From the NCBI RefSeq assembly GCF_000002865.3, contig NW_001865073.1:20780-84779 (forward strand): DNA of 64,000 bases, read 5' to 3'. Of the stretch, positions 28,230-34,558 are shown one piece after another. A model generated the notes under the pieces. That model was not told the origin of the DNA, did not search any database, and saw only the letters and a list, made by a program, of their open reading frames with translations. The DNA comes from Monosiga brevicollis MX1. Lineage: Eukaryota; Opisthokonta; Choanoflagellata; Craspedida; Salpingoecidae. Positions within the stretch are counted from its first letter, which is position 1, and the number at the start of each line of letters is the position of its first letter. The position numbers were made by a program, and so were the translations under genes.

Positions 28230-31200
28230 ATGGTCGCGCCACTGCGCCTTTCGGCGTCCAGCCTCTTGCTATTCTTGAGCCTTGCTCCTGCAGGTCAGCT
28301 TTGCAACGCGCTCATAAGTTCTCTCGTCTCGCCTCTCCCCATCGCTACGTGCTCCCTTGCATTCTTTTGCTCATCCCGCTGCCTCTACTCTTGGTGCTTT
28401 CTTTGAACCCAATCACCAACTCCTTCCGGTGCCTCGCAACTTTTCAGTAGCTTTGGCCTTGAACATCAACAGGGCTGACCTGATCCTCAGCGACGTTGGC
28501 CCATGCGAGCTAACCCTGCAATTTGATGGCTCGGTTTCCGCTACCGATGTACACCTCGAGCAAATGATCTTGACAGAGGGCTGGTATGCCCCACCTCAGA
28601 CCGTCGTTACCTCCGGCCCTCGACGAGTCGATGCACAAACGCTGTCGGCCAACCTGGATTGTGTGTCCCACGCGCTCAACCCAGCGTCGCACAGTTATAC
28701 CCTAAGCTTTTCTCCAGCGCTGCACGCTGACCTTCCCGCTGGCAACAGCACACTTATCGTCAACCTCACACGCACGGCCGAAGCCCCACTGCGCTTGCCC
28801 GCTAATATCTGCACCCGCCTCGTGACCGAGGGGCCCGCCACGAAGGACATCACCATCACCACCCTGGCCCAGGCTCAAGATATGGCCCGCCGACGTTGTA
28901 CGGGCTTTTTTGGCGCCTTGACCTTTCGCAATCTAACGCTGAGTCCTGCAGACTGGCGTGCCCTGCTCATGCCGCTTCGCCTCGTCGAGGGCTCTCTGCG
29001 CTTCGAAGCAACCCCCGGCCTGCAAGTCGAGGCCCTCGGTGGCTTGCAATGGCTTGCTGCGCGCGGCCCTTATCATCAGGATGAGCGCGGAACGTACGGT
29101 CTGCGCATCAACAACGTGCCGGGTTTTGTCGTGACCGACGGCCTCCGGCTCCTTTCTCTGCGTACTGGCCAGCGCATCGTCGTCATTGGCTCAGAGGCGG
29201 CACAGTGCCCGCCGGCCGACAATGAAGCCCTTCAGGCCTGGATTCTCAGCGCCCCGCTCGTGGACCTGCGCTACAACGTCAGCGCCTGTGTCGATACCAG
29301 CGAGGATAGCAACTGCGCAGGCGCTGTGGACGAACTCACCGGCCTGTGCCGCCACTCGGTCACCGACAAGTCCGTGTGTCCCGGCGGCATTATCACGTCC
29401 CTGGCTGACCTGGCACCCTATTCCGACTACTTGTGCACGGTCATCGACGGGTCCCTGAAGATCCTGGGCCCCCTCGAGTTTGCAGAGCACGAATTGGGCG
29501 TCCTGGCCCGCGTTGAGCACGTGTTGGGCGGCGTCATTGTTCAGGATGCCCCCTCACTCGTCAGCCTCGACTTTCTGCAATCGCTACGCACAGCTAACAT
29601 GGTAACAGTGACCGACAACGTCAATCTCCTCGACCTGCGACTTCCGCTTCTGAAGAATACCATCCCCATGGTCCTCACCAGCAACCCCCGTCTCTGCCAC
29701 AATGTTTCGCGGGTCCTCGAAAGCGCCTCGTGTGGCATAGTTGACGTTTCCGCCCGCATTCGGTGCCCCGCACTTGCCGCCGCCTCCTACAACCAAGAGT
29801 CGCTCTTGGTTTTGCTCGAACAGCAGCTGTCCTGGCCTCGCTCCAACATTGTTCTTCTGCCATCCTTTGGCACAGACACGGACGTCGGAGCCGTCATTGA
29901 AGTGACGCTGGTTGCTTCGATGGGTGATTCGCAGATGCTCCGCCGTGCGTTCCAAGATCTGCTTGACACAGGCGCCTGGGATCGCGCCGCTGCTCTCTTG
30001 CCCAGCGGCCAAACCCTTGTTGGTGCTCTCTTCCTCCAGGCCCCGCACCGCACCCCAAATGCCGCCTCAGCGGGGTCGGGTATTGTTCTGAGCGCGCAGA
30101 CTGCCAGCACCGGCGCCCTCATCTCGTGGGAACTCGGTGGGCTGGCCCCTGACTCGCAGGCGAGCTTTGTGCTGCAGGTACAGCCCCGCGTTTCAGACAC
30201 CCTGGTGGACGAGCTGACCGCCTACGCCTTCACCGCCGACCTGGCCTTGGACAGTTACGACGTCGTGTTCTCCCAAGTTCGTGCTGCCCTGACAGCCGGC
30301 ATGCCCGGTTTTGATATCAGCCTCGCATCTACAAGCCAGACATTTTTCTTGCTGCGCAGTTGCGATGCCATCATCGATGGCGAGACTGTGGCCATTCAAC
30401 AGACGTGCTTGGACATGGACCTAGCCTATGACCTGCGCGTTCTGGGCTTTGTCGACGGCTCTGCTGTAGCAAGCGACACCATCACCATCCAGCTGGCGGA
30501 CCCTGCCCTGCGTGTGCGCAACGTGAGCCTGCATGCCACAGGGCCGTCCGCCCTCACAGTACACTGGGCACCGCCGGTGGCGGCTGACCGTACCGCGGGA
30601 TACGAGGTCTTCATCCGGTACGCTGGTGTCGACAGCAACGGTGCCATGTACCTCCTCGATGCTGCCCAAATTACCGCAGGCACCTCCAACCCCACCGCCT
30701 TTGGTGTCCAGGAGCTTCTGCTTGATGGCTCTCGCCAGCGCCTCGTCATCAATGACCCAACCGCCACGAACCTCGAGTTGAATGGCTGCTATTTCAATTA
30801 TCACGCCAATGCCACCACGTGCTTGGCCCCCTTCACCGTTTATGTCGTCGGGGTCCGCCCGGTCGATGGCACCAGCAAGGGTGTCACGAGCTATTTTGTC
30901 GGCACCACCGGAGCAGACATGACGCTGTCCGAGCCGCCGGCCTGGTCCATGGCCTCAGAGACCCCCGTCGAGGTGCAAGGCCGCTCCGCCACCCTTCGTT
31001 TGCAGCGTCCGGTCAACATGCCGGCGGTCGCCACCCGTGTTCAGGCCGTTGTGACTGGTCCGTACGGAGAGCGTGTGATGAGTCGTGATATCATTGACCC
31101 TTTGGCCCACCACGTCAACCGATACAACGAATCCATGGAACTGGCCCTGGATCATTTGGCCCCCTACTCCAACCATACCATCAGCCTCATGTTTGTTGAT

Positions 31201-33537
31201 GACATGGGCGTGGTCAGCGCCAGCCGCAGCGTCTCCATCCTCACTGCGCCCGGTGCCCCAGACGCCGTTGCATCCGTGTCAGCAATGATCGAGGACGATG
31301 GCCGTCTTCGCGTGACTTGGTTGCCTCCGGTTGTCACCCCTGGCCCCCTCGTGTGGTACGAAGTCCTGGCCAATTTTGAGAACGAAACCGAGACAGGCGA
31401 GCTGGTGCACAATGGCACGGCCACCAGCATCACCATTGCCGCCAGCCTGGCTCAATCACAGATTGCCGTGCGGGCTGTGACGCCCGAGGGTGTGTCCAAC
31501 TTTGAGACGACGCGAGCCACCCTTGCCAGTGGTCAGCAGGAACTGCCCGTCAGCTACATGACCTTGGGCCTGGCAGTGGGTGGTGCCGTGCTATTGCTCG
31601 CCGTGGTGGGCTTTGTCCTGCGGCGTCGCCTGCGAAGCCTGCGCAAGGCCGCAGAGGATGAGTGGCGCGTGCCCGAGGCGGATGAATTTGAGTACCCGCG
31701 CGAGCGTGTGCGCTTGGGCCGCCAGCTTGGATCGGGCGCCTTTGGCATGGTCTTTGCGGGTCACGTCACGGACATTCGCGAAATCTCGGGTGAGGTTGCC
31801 GTTGCGGTCAAGCTGTGCTCCAGTAAGGCTGCCAAGGAGAAGAACGACTTTTTGGAAGAAGCCAACTTGATGAAACGCTTTGCCAAGCCTTGGCATCCCA
31901 ACGTGCTGCGTCTCTTGGGTGTGGTCACGCAGGAAGAACCCATGATGATTATCTTGGAGAACATGGCCAATGGTGATCTGCTCGGGTTCCTGCGCGGAGC
32001 ACGCCCTCCGGCACCCGGCCAAGACGCGGCCTTGACAATGACTGATCTCGTCTACATGGCAGCCGACGTGGCCAGCGGCATGGCCTTTTTGGCTCAAGGC
32101 AACTTTATCCACCGCGACCTTGCCGCACGCAACTGCCTCGTGGCAGAGGACATGGTCGTCAAAGTGGCCGATTTTGGCCTCTCTCGGGCGCTCAATTACT
32201 CAGACTATTATCGAAAGAATGGCCAAGCCCTGCTGCCTGTGCGATGGATGTGTCCCATGGCTTTGTGTGAGGGCAAGTTTACCACGGATACAGACGGTGA
32301 GTGCCTAGTTGTCTGCCTTTCCTGTATCGCTCGAGCAAGAAGAAGGTGGAGGTGGTGGGGGGGGCGGCGGTGGATATGATAGATGAGCTGGAGGAAGAGG
32401 CGAATTGGCGCGCTGTCCTCATGCCAACTTTTTTCTGCCTTGCTTTTTGATCCATGCGCGACCAACAGTCTATAGCTTTGGTATTCTTCTGTACGAGTTG
32501 TTCACCCTGGGTGCCCTGCCCTACACGGACATGAGCAACCAACAGGTGTTTGAGCAGGTTGTGGCTGGTTACCGAATGGAGCAGCCCCAGGGCTGCCCGG
32601 ACGTGATTTATAAGATCATGTGGGAATGCTGGCGCCTTTCGGATCGCCCGTCTTTTGAGAACTTGGAGGAGGTATGTTTGCTGGCAGTTGGTTGTGCCTG
32701 CCGTACACATGCGGAGACGCCTACCCGTTTATGTATCCTCACACGTGTTTCTTGATGATCGGCCGGCAGCGCTTGATGAATATTGGTCGTAGGTTGGAAG
32801 ATGGCGACCTCACCGTCCTATCCAGCTCACAACAGACGGCGCCCAGTGCCTCACTTGGCGCCGGTCTGCCCCCGACGCTGGTGGATGAGATCACGGGTAT
32901 GCCCATGGGTGAAGACTCTGCGCAGTCATACACCGCCATGGATGGCAGCAAGCCAGCCTCTGCTGTTGATTACAGCAAGTATGAGGACATGGCAGATGCA
33001 CACGTGCCTCTACAGCCGGTGGCTCCGAGTCCCAAGAGCACCTTGACGCGCCACACGCGTGGTGCTCGCTCAGATGTTCGTGCAGCGCAATTTAACGCAG
33101 ACGATGAGGAGCTACAGCATTTGGAACGCCTCAGGGATGAAGGTCCTGCGCCCACGAGTCAGCCCACGAAACGACCTGATTACGTGGTCACGATGGATAC
33201 GTATTCGCAAGTGCGACCGCCGGTGCCAGCGCCGCCCTTGCGCCGCAACCCAACACAGCAACGCCTGCCCCCCATGCCTCCCCGTGTGTCTGACAACAAT
33301 CAAGGACAGCTTACGCGGCCATCACAGCTCAACCCTGGCGCGAAGGCCTTTTTGGACTCGCAGCACCGCTCGACATCTGGAGCGTCGCAGGGCTACGATG
33401 ACCCCAACTCTTTGTTTGCAGCTATTCGAGACCGTGTTCATTCGCGCAGCAAAACGCCGGGCTCGCGGCACTCTTCCCTTGGCGATGTCCGATCCCAGCA
33501 CTCGGCCAGTTCGCGCGTCTCCACGTCGGCTCTTTGA
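28230..33537 (+). CDS. Receptor tyrosine kinase with L domains and fibronectin III domains
   Basis: Exons: about 28230-28293 (signal peptide MVAPLRLSASSLLLFLSLAP), 28448-32296, 32469-32671 and 32770-33537. The ectodomain has two receptor-L-like regions; the second reads CTVIDGSLKILGPLEF and later PSLVSLDFLQSL, as in insulin and EGF receptors. About four FN3-like domains follow (for example LRVTWLPPV). The membrane helix is LGLAVGGAVLLLAVVGFVLR, then RRRLR. The kinase has the glycine loop LGSGAFGMVFAG, VAVKLC, HRDLAARN and DFG, so it should bind ATP and transfer phosphate. The usual APE motif after the activation loop reads CPM (WMCPMALCEG). The activation loop has SDYY. The 250-residue tail carries several tyrosines (VDYSKYEDM, YVVTMDTYSQV) and proline-rich stretches, possible SH2 and SH3 docking sites. 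The ligand is unknown. Confidence 0.9.
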
Positions 33538-33851
33538 AGGCCACCATCGACGTGATCGTTGTTGTAGAGGGCTACAGGCCTGCATGCAGATGGAGAGGAG
33601 TCGGTGATTGACTTTAATGTTTATTATTTTGTTGACTTGCATGTCATCTTGAGTTTATGAGTTTGAGGCGGTGCTTGTCCTGCTGATGTTTGGCAACCAT
33701 CGTCCCCCAATTGACTGCCTGCCTATCCACATTAAACGAGTCCCAAACTCACACTGATCGCTGGCAATCACCACCCTCTATCAAATCAGTATGAGAACTC
33801 TGACGGACATAAACAGAAAAAGAAGAGAAAAACGGCAAAAAAAGAATTGAG
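33538..33851. other. 3' UTR and spacer after the receptor kinase gene
   Basis: AT-richer sequence with TTTATTATTTTG near 33620. A-rich runs are near 33825-33845. No coding feature. Confidence 0.4.
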
Positions 33852-34016
33852 TCACAGGCGGAGGAATCGAACCTGCCTCCTCCTCCTTATGAGGGAGAAC
33901 ACAGCAAACAGCGGACCAGATACATCTTGTATGTCGCAGAGGAGCGACGTGACAACATGCGGCAGTCAAGAGGACGTTGCTGCGGTTTTAGGTGTGCTAC
34001 CATTACACCAGCCTGT
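33852..34016 (-). tRNA. Candidate tRNA, CAT anticodon, with ~90-nt insertion
   Basis: On the minus strand the 5' seven bases CACAGGC (34016 downward) pair perfectly with GCCTGTG at the 3' end (33853-33859). TGGTGTAATGGTAGCAC follows the 5' acceptor strand as a good D arm and A box. GGTTCGATTCC forms the T loop and B box, with one mismatch in its stem. Directly before the variable region, TCTCC-CTCATAA-GGAGG makes a five-pair anticodon stem with loop CTCATAA, giving anticodon CAT (Met, or Ile if modified). About 90 nt lie between D arm and anticodon stem. That is not the usual intron place after position 37. The insertion itself has two small perfect hairpins (GTCGC/GCGAC and ATACA/TGTAT). It could be a tRNA with an ectopic intron, or a tRNA-derived relic. 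Confidence 0.55.
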
Positions 34017-34558
34017 GGTTGAGGCGACGAGACCAGTGGACAAGCCAGCGGCTCGTTCGGCCACGACGAGGTCGGGGTATAATCTCGTATATCAACCCCG
34101 ATTGACTTTGATTTTATGGTTCACAGATTGATAACTCGCCTTGCAATCCAGCTGCGGCAGGACGCGACCGAGGAACAACCCTCTTGGCTCGCAAAAAGGG
34201 CCAAAAAAATGGTCCAAAAATGGTCCAAAAATTAAAAAATTATGAAGCACAACTCAACAGTGCAAGCAGGCACGCACAAAGCTCGAGAACGCGAGAAACT
34301 TAATTCTACCCCCCGAACATAAATAAGCCTTTTTTTTTTTTTTCTCGGGTTTGATCGCCCTGTCGTTGTCGCTGCTGCTGGTGCTGCCGCTGCCGCTGGT
34401 GGTGGTGGCGCTGCCGCTGCCGCTGCTGCTGCTCAACCAGTCTTTGCTCGCCGATGTTCGATTGGAAGAATGGTGGCGGAGAGAGCTGTTCAAACTTGTG
34501 GTGCAGCATCTCACATTGTTGTTTGTCGTTGTCGTTCTTGTGGCAGTTGGCCGACAGC
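34017..34558. other. Intergenic stretch before the COA1-like gene
   Basis: It contains a repeated AAAATGGTCCAAAAA near 34205-34235, a T run at 34330-34343 and a GCTGCTGGTGCTGCCGCTG-type repeat at 34370-34435. The CTG-like repeat may be 5' UTR. No gene recognised. Confidence 0.4.

Follow-up and report, generated by a model that had tools for sequence, protein, structure and literature searches.

A gene of tRNA type in Monosiga brevicollis appears to be interrupted by 94 nt between its D arm and its anticodon arm, a reading that is well supported by the letters of the gene. It lies on the minus strand of the 64,000-nt stretch of DNA analysed here (the window), running from 34017 (C1) to 33852 (A73) over 166 nt. 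The best single interpretation, to which we give a probability of about 0.42, is a tRNA-like gene of RNA polymerase III (Pol III) that putatively carries an ectopic intron. An initial annotation of this DNA had noticed an interrupted tRNA-like gene at 33852 to 34016; the observation is confirmed, and the extent needed correction by one base, C1 lying at 34017. The gene, its parts and its flanking signals are as follows.

33852..34017, minus strand: whole tRNA-like gene, 166 nt including A73 (from sequence, fold and register analysis)
34011..34017, minus strand: 5' strand of the acceptor stem, CACAGGC, forming 7/7 pairs with 33853-33859
33994..34008, minus strand: D arm GTGT-AATGGTA-GCAC, positions 10-25, overlapping the A box; together with positions 8-9 (TGGTGTAATGGTAGCAC) identical to tRNA-His(GTG) of the same genome
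33900..33993, minus strand: insert of 94 nt, putative ectopic intron at 25/26 (ARAGORN placement scans; self-folding; no other genome match at E<=10)
33900..33984, minus strand: predicted long hairpin in the insert, closed by CGCAGCAA/TTGCTGTG (minimum-energy fold)
33882..33898, minus strand: anticodon arm TCTCC-CTCATAA-GGAGG (shuffle tests, register and fold)
33889..33891, minus strand: anticodon CAT (ARAGORN on the spliced form)
33877..33881, minus strand: variable loop AGGAG, 5 nt (register)
33860..33876, minus strand: T arm GCAGG-TTCGATT-CCTCC with the B box GGTTCGATTCC, 4/5 pairs, mismatch C50:C64 (register)
33853..33859, minus strand: 3' strand of the acceptor stem, GCCTGTG, pairing with the 5' strand
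33837..33843, minus strand: terminator-like run of seven T, then G, 8 nt after A73 (sequence)
34078..34091, minus strand: two TATA words, at -74 and -64 from C1 (word scan)

As described in the initial annotation, the acceptor stem pairs throughout, and the D arm with its A box and the T loop with its B box are both present. All the acceptor pairs are Watson-Crick, and the arms sit in exact tRNA register. The two boxes were assigned by the A-box and B-box consensus sequences. The five-pair anticodon stem with its CTCATAA loop was likewise found, one of its pairs being G-U, and the interruption follows C25 and not position 37, again as had been claimed. When the 94 nt are left out, T8, A14, the GG of the D loop, the T loop TTCGATT and A73 all fall into place. 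Removal of the insert from this point outside 37/38 restores 20 of 21 stem pairs, with 4/4 in the D stem (one G-U), 5/5 in the anticodon stem and 4/5 in the T stem. The acceptor helix is 7 bp long without extension into the flanks, and its pairs have a probability of 0.99-1.0 in the predicted fold of the unspliced RNA. A 9-bp acceptor is among the features of tRNA-Sec; such a helix is absent here, and this identity was dropped by eye. What the DNA itself shows is a set of cloverleaf parts in tRNA register, followed downstream by the T run.

Standard searches pass over the gene. Run without introns, ARAGORN finds no tRNA anywhere in the window, and Rfam at its gathering threshold gives no tRNA match there. 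At E<=10, four Rfam matches fall in the region 33600-34300, with neither tRNA nor Vault among them; one, to COG2908 RNA, overlaps the gene and looks like a chance match (13.0 bits against a gathering score of 58.7). A box C/D snoRNA within the gene was rejected, there being no C or D box and no such match by Rfam in the region.

For the placement of the insert we made contiguous deletions of 60-100 nt and scored the resulting 2504 distinct spliced forms with ARAGORN. The best forms are Met(CAT), with a score of 120.2, and have the D arm joined to position 26 or 27; the next-best anticodon, Ser(GCT), reaches 112.9, and no anticodon but CAT comes within 7 points of the best score. Reference tRNA entries in 42 loci, mitochondrial ones included, score 107.8-123.3, a range within which the spliced form falls. 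Among the neighbouring placements we infer a junction at 25/26; joined there, the spliced form shares a stretch of 20 nt, TGGTGTAATGGTAGCACTTC, with tRNA-His. Loop CTCATAA and A73 match the expectation for elongator tRNA-Met, the loop presumably marking an elongator rather than an initiator. A canonical intron was rejected, for ARAGORN finds no gene when the intron is fixed at 37/38. The check proposed in the initial annotation, a tRNA finder that permits introns, had a divided outcome: the ectopic deletion gives Met(CAT) at its high score, whereas a run with a free intron position returns Ser(GCT) with a 77-nt intron at 34-35, and the score on a profile of the genome's own tRNAs (see below) is low.

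The chance of an accidental anticodon arm was estimated by shuffling, with dinucleotides preserved, the letters that lie between the D arm and the T stem; an arm was counted if it had five pairs, T33 and R37 in register. Such an arm arose in 31 of 20000 shuffles, and 2 of 1000 reached or exceeded 120.2 with ARAGORN. Because the 3' strand of the anticodon arm lies within a GGA repeat, a stricter null held the repetitive GGAGGAGGAG fixed, and here the arm arose in 217 of 30000 shuffles. From these two counts, the chance of an accidental arm is roughly 0.2-0.7%. Between the D arm and the T stem, this is the sole 5+7+5 arm with T33 and R37. Beyond the anticodon arm, the acceptor stem, the D arm and the T arm fit a tRNA by themselves.

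The insert folds well on its own (-27.4 kcal/mol, z -2.72, with 3 of 200 shuffles as good), as does the whole unspliced RNA (z -2.36; 4 of 200). Of the two small perfect hairpins that the initial annotation had noted in the insert, both GTCGC/GCGAC and ATACA/TGTAT are there in the letters, but the predicted fold is one long arm that holds the first only; the closing pairs of this arm, CGCAGCAA/TTGCTGTG, have probabilities of 0.52-0.99. In the predicted unspliced fold, the acceptor stem is kept together with a 5-bp D-like hairpin, the 85-nt arm of the insert and an anticodon-like hairpin. The D-like hairpin, lengthened by three letters of the insert, has GGTGT/ACACC in place of the canonical D pairing; pair probabilities are 0.50-0.61 for the anticodon hairpin, 0.02 for the canonical D pairing and 0.0-0.12 for the canonical T stem. 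Folding better than shuffles would suit a structured intron and a retained arm alike.

If the insert stays in place, Pol III would make from this gene a stable non-decoding RNA, tRNA-like and with five arms; the vault RNA of the species would be one form of it. We consider this unlikely, yet it is the foremost of the rivals: the whole RNA and the insert both outfold their shuffles, the unspliced fold retains the arms just listed, the genome encodes vault protein repeats, and vault RNAs are, according to excerpts of PMC7904556, Pol III genes with an internal box A and box B, of 88-140 nt. Good folding, the vault protein and the Pol III origin of vault RNAs are the reasons for which a tRNA-like non-decoding RNA is kept as a serious rival. 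On the other side, an RNA that does not decode needs no in-register anticodon arm with T33 and R37, and the T run 8 nt past the terminal helix resembles a tRNA trailer. Against the vault form in particular, the Rfam Vault model (RF00006) has no match in the genome, where 48 of 2521 candidates were scored, and none in the region at E<=10; the gene, at 166 nt, exceeds the length range of vault RNAs and differs from them in having all parts of a tRNA in register, the anticodon arm and the T arm among them. The vault protein repeats of the genome number four and lie at C37:631971-632909 (genome G000; loci L060-L062), where C37 is a contig.

The flanks of the gene were compared with those of 54 nuclear tRNA genes, which have distinct flanks within the loci fetched and are part of the genome's set. 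A run of four or more T within 40 nt downstream is present in 48 of the 54. A TATA word at -55 to -10, found in 39 of the 54, is absent from the tRNA-like gene. A TATA word only at -68 to -78 is seen in 3/4 tRNA-Phe and 2/3 tRNA-His genes, and the words at -74 and -64 of the tRNA-like gene would fit, weakly, such a class with a long leader. Since a TATA word is common in any 100 nt, it is weak as promoter evidence. Both TATA words are enclosed by a perfect 7-bp inverted repeat, TCGGGGT...ACCCCGA, at 34072-34101, which starts 55 nt upstream of the gene.

Several other tRNA genes of the genome have features of their own. Four copies of tRNA-Phe(GAA), one at L024:57-209 and three in L025, are conserved beyond the gene itself, over about 44 nt upstream and about 36 nt downstream, up to the T run. 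Their TATA word lies near -70 instead of about -35 in 3/4, and leader and trailer pair together in the one copy that was folded (L024). The conserved leader and trailer suggest a larger functional precursor of this tRNA. Three tRNA-His(GTG) genes (L051: 1493-1563, 1755-1825 and 2150-2220) have in common the complementary leader and trailer letters TCAAGGA and TCCTTGA, and TATA words at -74 to -78 occur in two of the three. Two tRNA-Ser(GCT) copies, L040:94-176 and 521-603, score only 33 bits with the Rfam model and have no T4 run within 40 nt; possibly they are pseudogenes.

The genome has 39.47 Mb in 57 contigs, among which C57 is presumably mitochondrial, as we judge from its size and gene content. 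In the search with the Rfam tRNA model, 63 of 760 candidates were scored, and the tRNA set of the species is therefore incomplete. Among the candidates scored, two ordinary nuclear genes for Met(CAT) have the CTCATAA loop; both are on contig C46. A pattern running from this loop to the T arm has seven matches in the genome, namely this gene, the two on C46, two on the presumably mitochondrial C57 and two in which ARAGORN sees no tRNA. Outside its anticodon loop, the gene looks toward other isotypes. With tRNA-His(GTG) it shares every letter of positions 8-25 (TGGTGTAATGGTAGCAC) and of the B box GGTTCGATTCC, and the nearest relatives of the body among 17 tRNAs are Arg(CCT) and then His(GTG), Met being absent from the eight best shown; judged by its letters, the gene body is not Met-like. 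The same 17 type-I sequences of the genome, selected by leaving out Ser, Leu and sequences that failed a cloverleaf filter, made up a profile of the genome's own tRNAs. On this profile, the spliced form scores 50.4 bits, below all 17 real tRNAs (54.7-78.3). For each of the 17, sequences of its isotype and anticodon were withheld from the profile; the spliced form, scored against the full set with tRNA-His, had an advantage and still ranks below all 17.

The initial annotation had named several standard elongator Met genes elsewhere and poor scores for any intron placement as findings that would speak against it. Two such genes are present, and the scores are mixed, with 120.2 from ARAGORN against 50.4 bits on the profile. 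With two ordinary Met(CAT) genes, the tRNA-like gene would be dispensable, and it may accordingly be a decaying redundant tRNA gene that gained 94 nt and went out of use with its Pol III signals intact. This we also hold to be unlikely, and rank next. The low rank on the profile and the mismatch in the T stem point the same way, as does the review PMC4090602: where a eukaryotic tRNA gene carries a short insertion in its D or T arm, it is mostly one among many synonymous genes, and such genes are supposed to be pseudogenes. Decay is harder to reconcile with the seven intact acceptor pairs and the intact T7 run, with an insert that has no other genome match and folds above expectation, with the lack of a 4-8 nt target-site duplication at the insert ends, and with the genome searches, in which no recent source copy was found. 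In these, neither the gene nor the insert has a second match in the genome at E<=10, a search for this type of D arm followed by a spacer of 90-120 nt turns up no further gene in the genome (the spacer of this gene, 121 nt, being just outside), and the joined 72-nt query brings up no intron-less copy in the genome. The 72-nt query recovered only the gene's own 3' part, missing its 24-nt 5' part and the tRNA-His genes, so short or diverged relatives would escape it. The exact 24-nt 5' part is absent from the prokaryote genomes searched. Transposon insertion was rejected, given that gene and insert have no other genome match and no such duplication. As far as the searches show, the gene appears to be nuclear and single-copy.

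Very improbable, finally, is a chance resemblance, or another tRNA with an anticodon-loop intron such as the Ser(GCT) of the free-intron ARAGORN call: an accident would hardly produce acceptor, D arm, T arm and T run all together, nothing is found with the intron at 37/38, and Ser(GCT) with a long variable arm was rejected, as it scores lower, makes a variable arm of the anticodon arm and is an isotype for which genes, though low-scoring, are found on contig C48.

A putative ectopic intron raises the matter of how it would be recognised. The initial annotation had suggested looking for a bulge-helix-bulge at the junctions, and in its strict form this motif was not found: cut pairs were combined with helix lengths in 70 tests, all with cuts that spare the D stem and give a product of 71-75 nt, and none had a complete central helix of 4-5 bp. 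In a wider scan such helices are complete when the cuts fall at 18-21, but the D stem then loses its 3' strand and is broken. The proposal of an ectopic intron stands in part; a tRNA-type gene interrupted at this place speaks for it, and the missing strict motif, the two standard Met genes and the low score on the own profile speak against it. M. brevicollis has a canonical tRNA splicing system. In three of its Tyr(GTA) genes a short insert occupies the usual intron place, and of these genes ARAGORN reads one as Tyr(gta) with a 13-nt intron and two as '???(gt)', and tRNA_int_endo (PF01974) matches at two places of the genome, on contigs C41 and C42, the match on C42 containing a TGA. The encoded endonuclease says nothing on cutting at 25/26.

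The gene adjoins a receptor tyrosine kinase gene, past the 3' end of which it lies on the opposite strand. The kinase is 100% identical to MONBRDRAFT_12183 of M. brevicollis MX1 over 89% of the 254 residues queried. MONBRDRAFT_12183, at 28318-32379 on the plus strand, has the insulin-receptor-like combination of Receptor L, fibronectin III and kinase domains, and its later exons probably extend to 33537; the kinase region is 60% identical to a protein of Salpingoeca rosetta. A stop-to-stop frame of 131 aa (33736-34131, plus strand) overlaps the tRNA-like gene.

Under the ectopic-intron reading, RNA polymerase III would transcribe the gene from its internal A and B boxes, and the insert would fold as a separate arm beside the tRNA body. 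It would then be excised as an ectopic intron, either the tRNA splicing endonuclease or some other nuclease making the cuts, and the ends would be ligated. The mature tRNA would have 72 nt and a CAU anticodon, by which MetRS might recognise and charge it.

Published work places ectopic introns in archaea, with 25/26 among the positions, in the red alga Cyanidioschyzon merolae and in nucleomorphs, and states that tRNAscan-SE 2.0 analyses archaeal candidates for non-canonical introns (PMC4090602, PMC3978253, PMC8450103, PMC4033280, PMC6188563, PMC7904556). A count of M. brevicollis tRNA genes, made by tRNAscan-SE 2.0 at its default settings, is given in PMC6188563. Among crenarchaeal ectopic introns, that of tRNA-Pro(UGG) of Pyrobaculum islandicum has the same insertion point at 25/26, and archaeal tRNA introns measure 11-129 nt, so that 94 nt would fit (both from excerpts of PMC4090602). 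Crenarchaeal ectopic introns have a strict or relaxed bulge-helix-bulge, whereas the M. brevicollis gene has no strict one that keeps the D stem, and the organisms belong to different domains of life. C. merolae and the nucleomorph of Guillardia theta are eukaryotic systems with tRNA insertions outside 37/38 as here, in G. theta including elongator Met (excerpts of PMC4090602). Many ectopic introns of G. theta have no defined bulge-helix-bulge, in the wording of passages of PMC3978253, which for the strict form is also the case here. In G. theta, however, the inserts are of 3-24 nt and their excision was seen by RT-PCR (PMC4090602, in part), while the insert of M. brevicollis measures 94 nt and is a putative intron; C. 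merolae and G. theta are also lineages that do not count among the relatives of animals. tRNA-Tyr(GTA) of M. brevicollis shares genome and Pol III gene type with the tRNA-like gene, and has a short anticodon-loop intron instead (13 nt, in one of three copies).

Excerpts of PMC4090602 describe eukaryotic tRNA introns outside 37/38 as supposedly rare, naming nucleomorphs and a red alga as places of occurrence. Another review (PMC3978253, in part) doubts that an endonuclease with accessory subunits would cut tRNAs interrupted at positions other than 37/38, given the probable contacts of yeast Sen54 with the D arm and acceptor stem. An intron at 25/26 without a strict bulge-helix-bulge would demand a recognition of the splice sites unlike the ruler mechanism proposed for the eukaryotic endonuclease. 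In the literature searched, no paper joins tRNA, intron, D-arm and choanoflagellate and none joins vault RNA and choanoflagellate, and the titles and abstract starts of the best-ranked matches named no choanoflagellate gene of this kind. As far as was searched, and with somewhat less than even confidence, we propose that this may be the first nuclear tRNA gene among animals and choanoflagellates with an ectopic intron (94 nt, at 25/26, with no strict bulge-helix-bulge), or else a new five-armed tRNA-like RNA, maybe the choanoflagellate vault RNA. If the insert is spliced, a close relative of animals would be able to excise an intron from the tRNA core; if it is retained, the gene would provide a candidate structural RNA in an organism that encodes vault protein.
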